From a virus, in the IMG/VR virus record IMGVR_UViG_3300005839_000006, positions 1-22,021 of that record: DNA of 22,021 bases. One strand, written 5' to 3'. Below are positions 1,053 through 7,514 of this stretch, piece by piece. The translations under genes were made by a program, and so were the position numbers. The stretch's first letter is position 1; every line of letters begins with the position of its first letter. Below the pieces are notes generated by a model. That model saw nothing but the letters and a program-made list of their open reading frames with translations, did not search any database and was not told the DNA's origin.

Positions 1053-1081
1053 TTGACAGGCCATAGCAAATCGGTTATAAT
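1053..1081 (+). promoter_or_regulatory. Exact consensus sigma70-type promoter
   Basis: TTGACA at 1053-1058 and TATAAT at 1076-1081 are separated by exactly 17 bp, matching the bacterial housekeeping consensus at every position. Transcription should begin near 1088, just before the first arm of the structured leader. I saw no other perfect promoter in the window, so this is likely a strong early promoter using host RNA polymerase. Confidence 0.88.
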
Positions 1082-1087
1082 TTGCAC

Positions 1088-1235
1088 CTGTATGAAGCTG
1101 AGTGGCACCTCAGGCAAATGGAACCCCGGAACCCCCGGAGAGGCGTCCTATGCCACTCAGCTAGGTCTCTCCGGGGGTTCCCCCAAACCCGCCGGCCCGG
1201 CGGTCCCTTGTGGGAAAATGGGCAAAGGAGGTATC
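1088..1235 (+). promoter_or_regulatory. Structured 5' leader with two interleaved long stems
   Basis: Stem A pairs 1096-1107 (AGCTGAGTGGCA) with 1151-1162, 12 bp. Stem B pairs 1128-1142 (GGAACCCCCGGAGAG) with 1167-1181, 15 bp. The left arm of B lies in the loop of A and its right arm lies after A, so the order is A-B-A'-B': either a pseudoknot or two competing folds. A partial copy of the B arm at 1120-1127 could also compete. A short hairpin (1189-1194 with 1198-1203) follows, then the ribosome site AAAGGAGGT (1224-1232). A role in control of the gene behind it is inference. Confidence 0.7.
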
Positions 1236-1847
1236 ATGACGAGGTCTCATTTGATATATTTACTCCGGACGGGCAAGTGGAATGACTGGGATACATTCCC
1301 AGTCATATCGGAATTGTATGATGTGGTCAGATGGGAACAGGAACGCGGTTGGTATATTGAATATATACCAACCGCGGGAAAGGGCCTGCCCGCAATTTGG
1401 GAATTCGGGGGGGCCAGCACGCACCTGGGTCAAGCCCAAGTGGTGGGCAATAGAGACGGGCAACCTAAGGTGCCCATATATGTAAGGAAGCGTGGCCACC
1501 TGTCCTGTGGTGCCCACGGGCTATTTGTAGTCCGTCCGGGCATGAAAATCGCCACCTGCCGCCGCTATAGGCGGCAGTGGGTTGCCGCCTTATTTGAAGT
1601 GCGGGATGTGATTAAGGGAATCACCCCAAATACGGGGTTGATTCCCCTCAGGCTTATTGATGCCTATATGGGCATCAATAACGAAGCCGCGTGGGATATA
1701 GAAACCGAACACGCGGCTATCATAAATGCAGTGATAGACAAGGCCCATTGCTATCACTGCAGGGAGCTTCACTTTTGGCGCGAACCGGATCGCGATCGCG
1801 CCAAAAGGCCCGAACAGGAATGCGAATGCGGGCAGGAACACGAGTAA
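1236..1847 (+). CDS. Unrecognised Cys/His-containing protein from a hairpin-rich gene
   Basis: The start at 1236 is chosen because AAAGGAGGT ends 3 bases before it; the longer frame from 1053 would begin inside the promoter. The product is 203 residues and matches no family I know. It has a CGAHG motif, a second Cys in IATCRRYRRQ, and a C-terminal CYHC pair followed by CEC and a final HE-rich end, so one or two zinc sites are possible. The middle is basic (RKRGH, RRYRRQ), which suits nucleic-acid binding. Codon use resembles the neighbours and supports translation, yet seven long perfect hairpins lie inside the frame. The alternative is a noncoding RNA with a fortuitous frame; the strong ribosome site and length argue against it. 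Confidence 0.65.
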   Translation: MTRSHLIYLLRTGKWNDWDTFPVISELYDVVRWEQERGWYIEYIPTAGKGLPAIWEFGGASTHLGQAQVVGNRDGQPKVPIYVRKRGHLSCGAHGLFVVRPGMKIATCRRYRRQWVAALFEVRDVIKGITPNTGLIPLRLIDAYMGINNEAAWDIETEHAAIINAVIDKAHCYHCRELHFWREPDRDRAKRPEQECECGQEHE

Positions 1848-1930
1848 AGTGGCGTGGGTGTGCCGGTCAGGAGTCCGACCCTCTGACCGGCACCAAAGAT
1901 GAAGCCGAAAAGATATAAAAGAATAAAAGA

Positions 1931-1964
1931 AAGCGCCGGGCTTGGCTTGGTAGCCCGGCGTTTT
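1931..1964 (+). terminator. Rho-independent terminator
   Basis: CGCCGGGCT (1934-1942) pairs with AGCCCGGCG (1952-1960), and AAAG before it pairs with TTTT after it through one G-U pair. A T-rich run TTTTAATTT follows. It closes the transcript begun near 1088, giving an RNA of about 875 bases. Another GC-rich hairpin lies at 1981-2009 without a T tract. Confidence 0.8.
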
Positions 1965-2091
1965 AATTTAGCTCAAATAAACCCCGGAGCGTTGCAACAA
2001 CTCCGGGGTCATAGGCCCATAGTATCGCTATACAAATCCCATAACCATAAACCCCCGGCTCCGAGGGCTAAATCGGGCAAAGGAGGATAAG

Positions 2092-2451
2092 ATGAAGGTT
2101 TATAACTTCACTCCTCACCCGATAGTAATAAAGATACCGGGTGGAGATGATGTAGTCATAGAGCCTAGTGGTTATACTGCTAGGCTTGAGGAGAAACTTG
2201 CCCCTGCGGGCACTATTTGGCTTGAGGGGCATGTGGTTGACCTCTACAAGCGTGAGCTAGGAGAGGTCAAGATCATCCCCACCGAGCTGAAGCTGGAACC
2301 TGGAGATGTTGTCATAGTCTCCAGCTTGGTGGCCTATACTCTCAAAGAGCAGAGGCCGGAACTCATAGTCCTCGTCCCGGGCGAACCCGTCAGGGACGAG
2401 AAGGGAGCGATCATAGGAGTCAAGAACTTGTTTGTGATTGAGGGTTCTTGA
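2092..2451 (+). CDS. Conserved phage-type small protein of unknown function
   Basis: The 119-residue product starts MKVYNFTPHPIVI and ends with a PGEPVRDEKGAIIGVKNLFVI segment. From memory this resembles a small protein family seen in phages and actinobacterial prophages (N-terminal NLTPH motif, C-terminal PVRDxxGxIIG motif) with no assigned role. It looks mainly beta-stranded, with an SSLVAYTLKEQRP core. AAAGGAGG at 2081-2088 sets the start. The last codons and stop lie in a perfect 9-bp hairpin (2419-2427 with 2444-2452). It comes after the 1960 terminator with no clear promoter of its own, so read-through or an unseen promoter is needed. Confidence 0.7.
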   Translation: MKVYNFTPHPIVIKIPGGDDVVIEPSGYTARLEEKLAPAGTIWLEGHVVDLYKRELGEVKIIPTELKLEPGDVVIVSSLVAYTLKEQRPELIVLVPGEPVRDEKGAIIGVKNLFVIEGS

Positions 2452-5390: not shown

Positions 5391-7514
5391 ATGAAGGCAA
5401 ACCCCACCGAACAAGCCCTCATAGGAACACTTCTTGTTTATCCTGAGGAGTGTCCACGCGTACTAGAGGTCATAACCATAGATGACATAAAGGGCCAAGC
5501 CGAGAGATTTATATTCCAAGCTATACAGGCCCTCTATAATAACGGGAACAAAACCCCTGATGTAGTGCAGATAATAGAGGAACTGGAACGCCGCGGGTGG
5601 CTTCAGGCCATAGGAGGCCGTGAATATCTGGCCAAGCTCCAGGATTATGCATTATCAGCGCGTCAGATAGACGAGTATGTTGAAACCCTGCTCAGGCGCC
5701 GGTATCGTTATCAGATCATCCGCATGGCCACTGATATTATTCAGGCCGCCAAGCATGGAGATAAACCTCAACTTACTGAGGCTTTCACCAAGCTGTCTGA
5801 GACCGCTCAGCTATTCTTTGCGGATTATGAAGGAACCGAGGAATTCATCCCCATGTCCCATGTGGAGCCTGAGACCCCTCAGTGGGTTATTGAGGATTGG
5901 ATTCCCCGGAATGGCCTCTCAATCATGGCTGGCCATCCCGGCACTGGGAAAACCTGGGCCGCCCTAGCCATGGCCGCCTTTGTAGCTTCTCAGGGGGGCC
6001 GTGTTGTAATTATTTCCACTGAGGACGCGGCGGGGATTCTGAGGAATCGCCTAGACGCAATAGGAGTGGACATGGCCCAGATAGGAGACAACATTCTGGT
6101 TCCCTCTAAGCCGTTAAACCTCCTTCTTGTTCCGGATCAGGAGGCCCGGTGGCAGGAAATAGGCCAAAGGCTCCAACCTGATCTTGTTATCCTGGACAGC
6201 TTACAATCGTTCTTTCCGGGACGAATAGACATTAACCGGGCCAACGAGGTAAGGGAGGCTCTAAACATCCTGGATAGGGCTTTTCCTGGCGCCGGAATCC
6301 TAGCTCTTTACCACCGGCCCAAATCCGGCAGTGATCCCATTCTAGGTTCCGTGGACTTCAGGGCAAAGGCTCGCTCGGTGATAAGCATAGAACAAGACCC
6401 CCTGACTGGAGAAAGAATCATGCGAATTGTAAAGTGCAATTACAAAGACATGAGCCTTATCCGGCCAATCAGCTTTGGGATTACCCCTGAGGGGTTTAGG
6501 TGGAAAGGGGCTTCTGTGGAGAGTGTAGCCGGTCTTACAACTGAGGAACAAAGACATGCCGCGGAGGTAATCATAGAGGCCCTCAAGGAGGCCGGGCCAG
6601 AGGGAATATCGGTATCTGACCTCAAAGCCAAGCTGAAGAGTGAGGGGATACCTGAGAAAATATACCGCGACACATGGGAACACCTGGCCAGGGTTGGCTA
6701 TGTTCCCCGACTAAGCCGAGGTGGAAATCCTAAAGAGAAGAAAGCAGTTCTACTACGCCGCGGGGAAGTCCCCAGGGGGTTCGTATATCATGCTAGAGGT
6801 GAGAATGGAAACCAATCGCCCAATCGCCATAGTATATATGAGGGCGATTGGGCGATTGACGGAAACCCTAATAATGACGCGGATTTCCAGCAAGAAGAAG
6901 TTCCTGAGACCACAGGAGGAGAGGGCGATTGGTTTCCAAGGGGAGAACCAATCGCCCAATCGCCCTACCCTATATATGGCGATTGGGCGATTGAAAGAAA
7001 CTCTAATGGTGGTGCGGGTTCCCAAGAAGGGGTTCCTGAAACTGAAGGGCGATTGGAGGGCGATTGCTTTTGCCCGGGGGAAAGACCAATCGCCCCAATC
7101 GCCCCAGGAGAGGAAATGTCCTCAGATTCTCTGGAGGGCAATCGCCCCAATAGCCCAGGGGAGAGCTCAGATAGGGCGATTGAAAAAATAAGTCCTGATA
7201 ATGAAGAGAACAACCAATCGCCCAATCGCCCCAATAGCCCAACCCCAGCTGAGCTAGACGCCCTAGAAGCCGAGGAGTTTCCTCTAGACCCGTCCCTCAG
7301 GGATGATGACTCTGGCCGGTTCCCTGAGGAACTGGGGGAGACCAAAGAGGAGAGGGATGACTATACGCCCCCACCACCCCCACGGGGTATGGACCCGGCC
7401 CAGTGGGAATATCTATGCCGTCTGTTTGGGCTAGAGGAGATACCCGATGATAGATTTCCACCCCCAAAGAACCCTAAAGGAAAAAACCAAAACCATAAGG
7501 AGGTAAAACCATGA
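5391..7514 (+). CDS. Replication ATPase: DnaB N-domain, RepA-like core, repeat tail
   Basis: Residues about 3-100 match the DnaB N-terminal domain (PTEQALIGTLL, GGREYLAKL). Residues about 155-370 form a RecA-fold ATPase of the RepA/AAA_25 type: Walker A GHPGTGKT at 181-188, IISTED after it, Walker B LVILDS at 265-270. Residues about 380-460 look like a winged helix (GISVSDLKAKLKSEGIPEKIYRDTWEHLARVGYV). Residues about 470-707 are low-complexity and disordered, rich in Pro, Glu, Asp, Gly and Asn. The protein is most likely the replicative helicase or its loader; no primase motifs are seen. The DNA for residues 475-616 carries the 8-bp repeat array. AAGAAGGAGG precedes the start, and the stop overlaps the next gene (ATGA). 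A classic DnaB C-terminal domain is not evident. Confidence 0.8.
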   Translation: MKANPTEQALIGTLLVYPEECPRVLEVITIDDIKGQAERFIFQAIQALYNNGNKTPDVVQIIEELERRGWLQAIGGREYLAKLQDYALSARQIDEYVETLLRRRYRYQIIRMATDIIQAAKHGDKPQLTEAFTKLSETAQLFFADYEGTEEFIPMSHVEPETPQWVIEDWIPRNGLSIMAGHPGTGKTWAALAMAAFVASQGGRVVIISTEDAAGILRNRLDAIGVDMAQIGDNILVPSKPLNLLLVPDQEARWQEIGQRLQPDLVILDSLQSFFPGRIDINRANEVREALNILDRAFPGAGILALYHRPKSGSDPILGSVDFRAKARSVISIEQDPLTGERIMRIVKCNYKDMSLIRPISFGITPEGFRWKGASVESVAGLTTEEQRHAAEVIIEALKEAGPEGISVSDLKAKLKSEGIPEKIYRDTWEHLARVGYVPRLSRGGNPKEKKAVLLRRGEVPRGFVYHARGENGNQSPNRHSIYEGDWAIDGNPNNDADFQQEEVPETTGGEGDWFPRGEPIAQSPYPIYGDWAIERNSNGGAGSQEGVPETEGRLEGDCFCPGERPIAPIAPGEEMSSDSLEGNRPNSPGESSDRAIEKISPDNEENNQSPNRPNSPTPAELDALEAEEFPLDPSLRDDDSGRFPEELGETKEERDDYTPPPPPRGMDPAQWEYLCRLFGLEEIPDDRFPPPKNPKGKNQNHKEVKP
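6813..6858. repeat. First 16-bp perfect dyad of the array
   Basis: CAATCGCCCAATCGCC (6813-6828) pairs perfectly with its reverse complement at 6843-6858, across a 14-base loop containing TATATAT. Each arm is two 8-bp units in tandem. Confidence 0.9.
6949..6993. repeat. Second 16-bp perfect dyad of the array
   Basis: The same 16-base arm at 6949-6964 pairs with 6978-6993 over a 13-base loop that again ends in TATATAT. A single reverse unit at 6924-6931 precedes it. A looser third dyad joins 7048-7066 to 7087-7103. Confidence 0.9.

Follow-up and report, generated by a model that had tools for sequence, protein, structure and literature searches.

Why is one gene of a double-stranded DNA phage packed with hairpins from its leader to its 3′ UTR? 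The question is raised by positions 1053 to 2009 of the window, by which we mean the whole stretch analysed, a viral contig of 22,021 bases that carries genes for DnaB-like replication, terminase, portal, capsid and tape-measure proteins. An earlier note, made from the letters alone, had described here an exact promoter and a T-tailed terminator enclosing ten or more perfect stems and a 203-codon frame, and had proposed a large structured RNA that is also an mRNA.

Hairpins of the transcription unit

The promoter and the terminator are as that note described them, and are listed with the other features in Table 1. Transcription would start at about position 1088 and give a monocistronic early phage mRNA; the early status of this gene, and of the similar genes discussed below, is suggested by genome position. 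Relatives are identified here by locus numbers. Promoters upstream of the same gene match at 12/12 positions in L008 (17 bp spacing) and L018 (16 bp), and at 11/12 in L012.

Table 1. Features of the hairpin-packed transcription unit and of the gene that follows it
Feature	Position	Strand	Remarks
Sigma-70-type promoter, exact TTGACA-17-TATAAT	1053..1081	+	12/12 match, 17-bp spacing
Putative 5′ leader pseudoknot	1096..1181	+	Interleaved arms, from coordinates
Leader stem 1, 12 bp	1096-1107/1151-1162	+	Perfect-stem scan
Leader stem 2, 15 bp	1128-1142/1167-1181	+	Perfect-stem scan
Ribosome-binding site AAAGGAGG	1224..1231	+	Read from sequence, before frame 1236-1847
203-codon gene	1236..1847	+	
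Hairpin, 10 bp	1282..1306	+	Perfect-stem scan
Hairpin, 14 bp	1344..1376	+	Perfect-stem scan
Imperfect hairpin, 8 + 6 bp	1510..1543	+	Computed fold
Imperfect hairpin, 4 + 7 bp	1552..1582	+	Computed fold
Hairpin, 12 bp, one mismatch	1616..1646	+	
Hairpin, 11 bp	1654..1681	+	Perfect-stem scan
Hairpin, 9 bp	1685..1718	+	Perfect-stem scan
Hairpin, 11 bp; 3′ arm codes for conserved CYHCR motif	1727..1761	+	
Hairpin, 12 bp	1772..1807	+	Perfect-stem scan
3′ UTR hairpin, 11 bp	1860..1893	+	Perfect-stem scan
Intrinsic terminator, 9-bp GC-rich stem then TTTT	1934..1964	+	
Next gene, small protein	2092..2451	+	Matches PADLOC 'Unk_01, sometimes fused to CARF'

The interval 1086-1975 contains ten perfect Watson-Crick stems, 9-15 bp long with loops of 3-60. 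In 200 dinucleotide-preserving shuffles of the same sequence the mean number is 0.2 and the highest is 2, and the estimate of ten or more stems beyond chance is thus borne out. An eleventh perfect stem lies at 1981-2009, beyond the terminator. The stems mostly follow one another, as had been stated, except that the two longest leader stems interleave, giving a possible H-type pseudoknot with 27 bp in total, and that 1377-1500 contains imperfect stems only. Tandem copying of one unit was rejected, because the arms are not explained by any direct-repeat family; on this the earlier reading was correct. The predicted transcript (1088-1975) has a folding energy of -414.5 kcal/mol, compared with -322 on average for its shuffles (z -15.4). 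All folding was computed, at 37°C.

The coding sequence alone contains 6 stems of 9 bp or more, while 600 synonymous-codon shuffles, made within the gene such that protein and codon usage are preserved, have a mean of 0.37 and a maximum of 3. The folding z score of the gene on the same basis is -9.75. Since the folding is lost on synonymous-codon shuffling, the structure is no by-product of the protein. Dinucleotides vary in these shuffles, and for this reason neighbouring genes were used as the main control.

The protein family and its folding in other phages

The 203-codon frame is a genuine gene and belongs to a phage protein family. The protein is 31% identical to proteins of Fusobacterium phages JD-Fnp4, JD-Fnp6 and JD-Fnp7, and iterated searches extended the family to about 25 members. 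Alignments place the family core at approximately residues 39-176 of the window protein, with a conserved WExGG...H...YHCR pattern. The invariant or near-invariant residues of the family are W-E-x-G-G, H, H-H-R-x-D-F and Y-H-C-R, where H-H-R-x-D-F is altered in the window protein and in those of the Fusobacterium phages. Outside the core, residues 1-37 and 177-203 form extensions that lack conservation and have low confidence in the AlphaFold2 model, in which the core is modelled confidently. Prediction of the core gave a pLDDT of 88.

Searches of Pfam, PHROG, NCBIfam and PADLOC gave no family covering the protein, and two scans of genome contigs gave no cellular homologues. The best solved match of the core in Foldseek is AFV1 ORF157, whose catalytic glutamate is E86 (probability 0.98-1.00, TM 0.51-0.53), with a weak E of 0.013-0.076. 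ORF157 of Acidianus filamentous virus 1 is a nuclease, whose activity has been reviewed (PMC4187194). The predicted fold of the family protein resembles this nuclease, although identity over the alignment is only 10-14% and no catalytic residues are matched; a nuclease role is possible.

The folding itself is widespread in the family. Synonymous-shuffle z scores are -9.4 for L008, -8.7 for L009, -7.8 for L003, -7.0 for L016 and -6.7 for L013, and range from -2.3 to -5.8 in ten further members. Over-folding is slight or absent in L014, L015 and L012 (-1.4 to -1.9) and in L020 (+0.9). The mean z is -4.18 for the family (n=20) and -1.35 for neighbouring genes on the same contigs (n=205), with P about 1e-7, and the family gene ranks first for folding in 13 of the 20 loci. 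It is concluded from this comparison that over-folding recurs at the family gene in very different phages, with unrelated hairpin sequences.

Structured leaders are present in the window, L008, L007 and L012, and differ among family members; several members sit inside operons and have no leader of their own. In L008 there are two copies of a leader element, TTGACYRGAAACCCGATAACYRGTCCGCA, one preceding the family gene and the other the gene after it (L008:2878-2910 and L008:3808-3838), and its stem co-varies between the copies (GACCAG/CTGGTC and GACTGG/CCAGTC). It was considered as a widespread RNA, and rejected because among the viral contigs searched the pattern matched its own contig alone. 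On the 3′ side of the stop codon, L038, L012 and L016 have CACGAC or ACGACAC, a small variable hairpin and ACCGTCACCG, followed by a terminator; the 3′ UTRs of L045, L048 and L056 have a common GGGCACGAGGCCACTTG in place of the ACCGTCACCG-type motif.

Selection on the RNA and the explanations considered

Stems containing G-U pairs number 65 in 13 members, where about 37 are expected. Stems with A-C mismatches, which are G-U stems seen from the opposite strand, number 36 in the same members, with about 33 expected. In most of the strongly folded members the gain in stability is greater for the sense than for the antisense strand, clearly so in the Fusobacterium phages, L013 and L016. The four close Fusobacterium phages allow a stricter comparison, in which synonymous codons are swapped between phages such that the protein and the composition of each column are kept. 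On swapping, the stability of the consensus drops (z -4.6), and the compatible double changes, of which there are 19, fall to 9.8 ± 2.1; for six neighbouring genes in these phages the codon-exchange test gives z of 0 to -1.3. By a separate count there are 18 double-changed pairs, where shuffles have 8.1 ± 2.2 (0 of 500) and slid controls 2-5. RNA-level selection on the structure at the family gene is thus supported in relatives.

According to the earlier note, the structured-RNA reading would be refuted if arms mutated without compensation in relatives that conserve the protein. Distant relatives do keep the protein with completely different arms, whereas in the Fusobacterium quartet the changes in the arms are compensatory. 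The window itself shows neither an excess of G-U stems (3, with 2.1 expected) nor a sense-strand advantage greater than expected, perfect stems being dominant there; the sole near relative found is identical, and therefore offers no arm changes for compensation.

No single shape is shared by the family. A consensus fold for the whole family was rejected, because the codon alignment of 22 members shows none beyond synonymous shuffles (energy z +0.2). Two hairpin positions do recur, over the KATCYHCRxP codons (Stouffer -8.8) and more weakly over the PAxWExGGG codons (-5.4). In 14 of 24 members the former is stronger than synonymous sampling predicts (P<0.05); it shows no covariation in a fixed register. 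Membership of a known RNA family was likewise rejected: Rfam covariance models found nothing at gathering score, and relaxed-threshold matches were far below gathering. Avoidance of a self-cleaving RNase motif was also discarded, as k-mer counts deviate only weakly from synonymous shuffles.

The comparison with GOLLD and ROOL, to which the earlier note saw no identity, can now be drawn more closely. Like the window RNA they are long structured transcripts of phages and prophages, but they have conserved architectures (PMC12286853) and form RNA-only cages, whereas the window RNA encodes a conserved protein. With no shared fold and no Rfam match the present case is distinct from both; the proposed reading as a highly structured mRNA is supported, but not one as an ornate RNA in the GOLLD/ROOL sense. 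HEARO/OMEGA systems likewise pair a structured RNA with an ORF, which here may have a nuclease fold. There, however, the RNA has an overlapping nuclease ORF, while here the hairpins lie within the coding sequence and vary between members, and Pfam, NCBIfam and PADLOC searches found no HNH, RuvC or IsrB domain in the window protein.

The nearest known parallel is the ordered structure in coding regions of RNA viruses (GORS), discussed in PMC6563262. It too is pervasive folding of the sense strand through coding sequence, detected with synonymous-codon controls, in which selection is apparently on the amount of folding and not on one shape. Folding beyond such controls is found here, and sense-strand selection, seen as G-U use and compensation, is found in relatives but not from the window alone. 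GORS concerns whole RNA genomes, while the genes described here are single early genes of double-stranded DNA phages, only some early genes being affected, with compensatory evolution in relatives.

Our preferred explanation, which we would put at somewhat below an even chance, is that the transcript is an armoured early mRNA, densely folded on its sense strand by selection, from a probable counter-defence module. The target of selection would be the quantity of pairing, and the hairpins would act as armour by keeping unpaired stretches rare. Such armour could give a longer-lived early transcript, or could conceal it from host RNases or from RNA-guided or RNA-sensing immunity. This presumes that the stems form in cells and benefit the phage.

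The main rival is autoregulation, in which the gene product, which may be a nuclease, would exert feedback control by binding or cutting the hairpins of its own mRNA, with the leader pseudoknot and the recurring YHCR hairpin as operators. The structured leaders, the strength of the YHCR hairpin against synonymous choice and the nuclease-like predicted fold are all consistent with it. One operator, however, needs no hairpins throughout the coding sequence; moreover, leaders vary or are missing in the family, no fold is shared, the YHCR hairpin lacks fixed-register covariation, and similar arrays occur in unrelated genes of the same phages. We consider autoregulation unlikely.

Folding might instead follow from high expression or host temperature, if highly expressed phage mRNAs simply fold more without any specific role. 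The early genes of the window do fold more than the late ones (mean z -3.4 and -2.0, P 0.048, in a comparison made post hoc), and the mean z of neighbouring genes is slightly negative. Nevertheless the late genes expected to be highly expressed fold less than the window gene, as with capsid (-4.2), and the other structural genes are far less folded; neighbouring genes, which share its genome and temperature, are unaffected. This explanation is distinctly unlikely.

A mutational origin would make the hairpins functionless, as products of DNA polymerase template switching at quasi-palindromes, which perfects inverted repeats. Template switching is reported to homogenise arms in coding genes (PMC8604942), and the window arms are indeed unusually perfect and without G-U excess. 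A palindrome in JD-Fnp4 also counts in its favour: at L003:3211-3240 clustered changes relative to JD-Fnp6 and JD-Fnp7 (L004 and L005) have produced a perfect 30-nt palindrome, apparently a quasi-palindrome perfected by template switching. What this origin leaves unexplained is why this gene and a few others are hit in distant phages while neighbours are spared. The G-U excess without an A-C excess, the sense preference and the compensating arms of the Fusobacterium quartet argue against a purely mutational origin, which we regard as improbable.

Finally, we give little credence to a bifunctional RNA, a transcript with a role of its own as scaffold or as decoy for dsRNA-binding proteins or nucleases and with the protein as its partner, since no architecture is conserved family-wide, there is no Rfam family and several members are operon-embedded without a leader of their own, even though a strong promoter and terminator bound the transcript, hairpins occur in leader, gene and 3′ UTR, and some members have 3′ UTR elements in common.

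Neighbouring genes and other folded phage genes

It is from its neighbours that the gene is suggested to form part of an early module for counter-defence or host takeover. The next gene (2092-2451) is the second most folded in the window, with z -7.5, and a 36% identical relative of its protein directly adjoins the family gene in L044. In L018, L045 and L055 the adjacent gene is similar to the STIV-B116/DUF1874 (AcrIII-1, Csx16) family, and in L014 an ArdA gene lies close by. DUF1874/AcrIII-1 proteins are viral ring nucleases that act as type III anti-CRISPRs. They are related to the family gene only as neighbours, adjacent in three loci and also with folded mRNAs, but forming a separate protein family.

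The CARF-associated, DUF1874 and ArdA neighbours are among the most folded genes outside the family, an association seen in few loci. Of 13 DUF1874 genes examined, nine reach a z of -3.4 or lower, and several are first in their own locus. A rule that all DUF1874 (AcrIII-1-like) mRNAs are folded is not supported, because eight such genes fetched independently from phage records gave pooled folding not above that of their neighbours (P 0.28). Nor is the CARF-associated small protein always encoded by a folded gene, as two relatives have z of only -1.5.

Evasion of RNA-targeting immunity is plausible, because structure in the target RNA reduces detection by type III CRISPR in vitro by up to two orders of magnitude (PMC8682760). 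Protection from ordinary RNases is equally compatible with the results. On the evidence of its neighbourhood, the family gene may be linked to type III anti-CRISPR function. The specific proposal that early counter-defence mRNAs are armoured against type III CRISPR, Cas13 and defence RNases until their protein is made, with this gene as a new counter-defence family, seems to us rather doubtful. If the hairpins do shield transcripts, the strength of folding could be used to flag unknown early or counter-defence genes, and the hiding of phage mRNA from RNA-guided immunity would be open to test by synonymous recoding.

Similar folding is found elsewhere in the Fusobacterium phages. The family gene of JD-Fnp4 ranks 5th of its 165 genes by z. 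Those folded more strongly include a radical-SAM gene at 133020-133772 (L059:33020-33772, z -10) and the gene at 57193-57690 (L058:7193-7690, z -7.6), both of them evident hairpin arrays. Both are short genes with AT-rich promoters and leaders similar to those of the family gene; the test for an association of promoter motif with folding in JD-Fnp4 was a post hoc one, made once the motif had been spotted. In phage phiFN37 four genes next to a CI-like repressor have z of -6.3 to -9.4 (L069:1049-3882), and the set includes an annotated GTP 3′,8-cyclase adjoining a DUF1874 gene. These arrays indicate that the phenomenon characterises a subset of early or accessory genes in phages, with the window gene at the extreme.

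Three further elements were noted. Within the window, positions 6812-7231 hold many copies, in both orientations, of CCAATCGCCC/GGGCGATTGG in the C-terminal region of the DnaB-like gene; these repeats have no relation to the hairpin-packed gene. A Type II hammerhead ribozyme (Rfam RF02276) is located at L016:1971-2030, about 1 kb upstream of the family gene, and a DUF3800-VIII RNA (Rfam RF03075) at L018:2073-2139, about 0.9 kb upstream.
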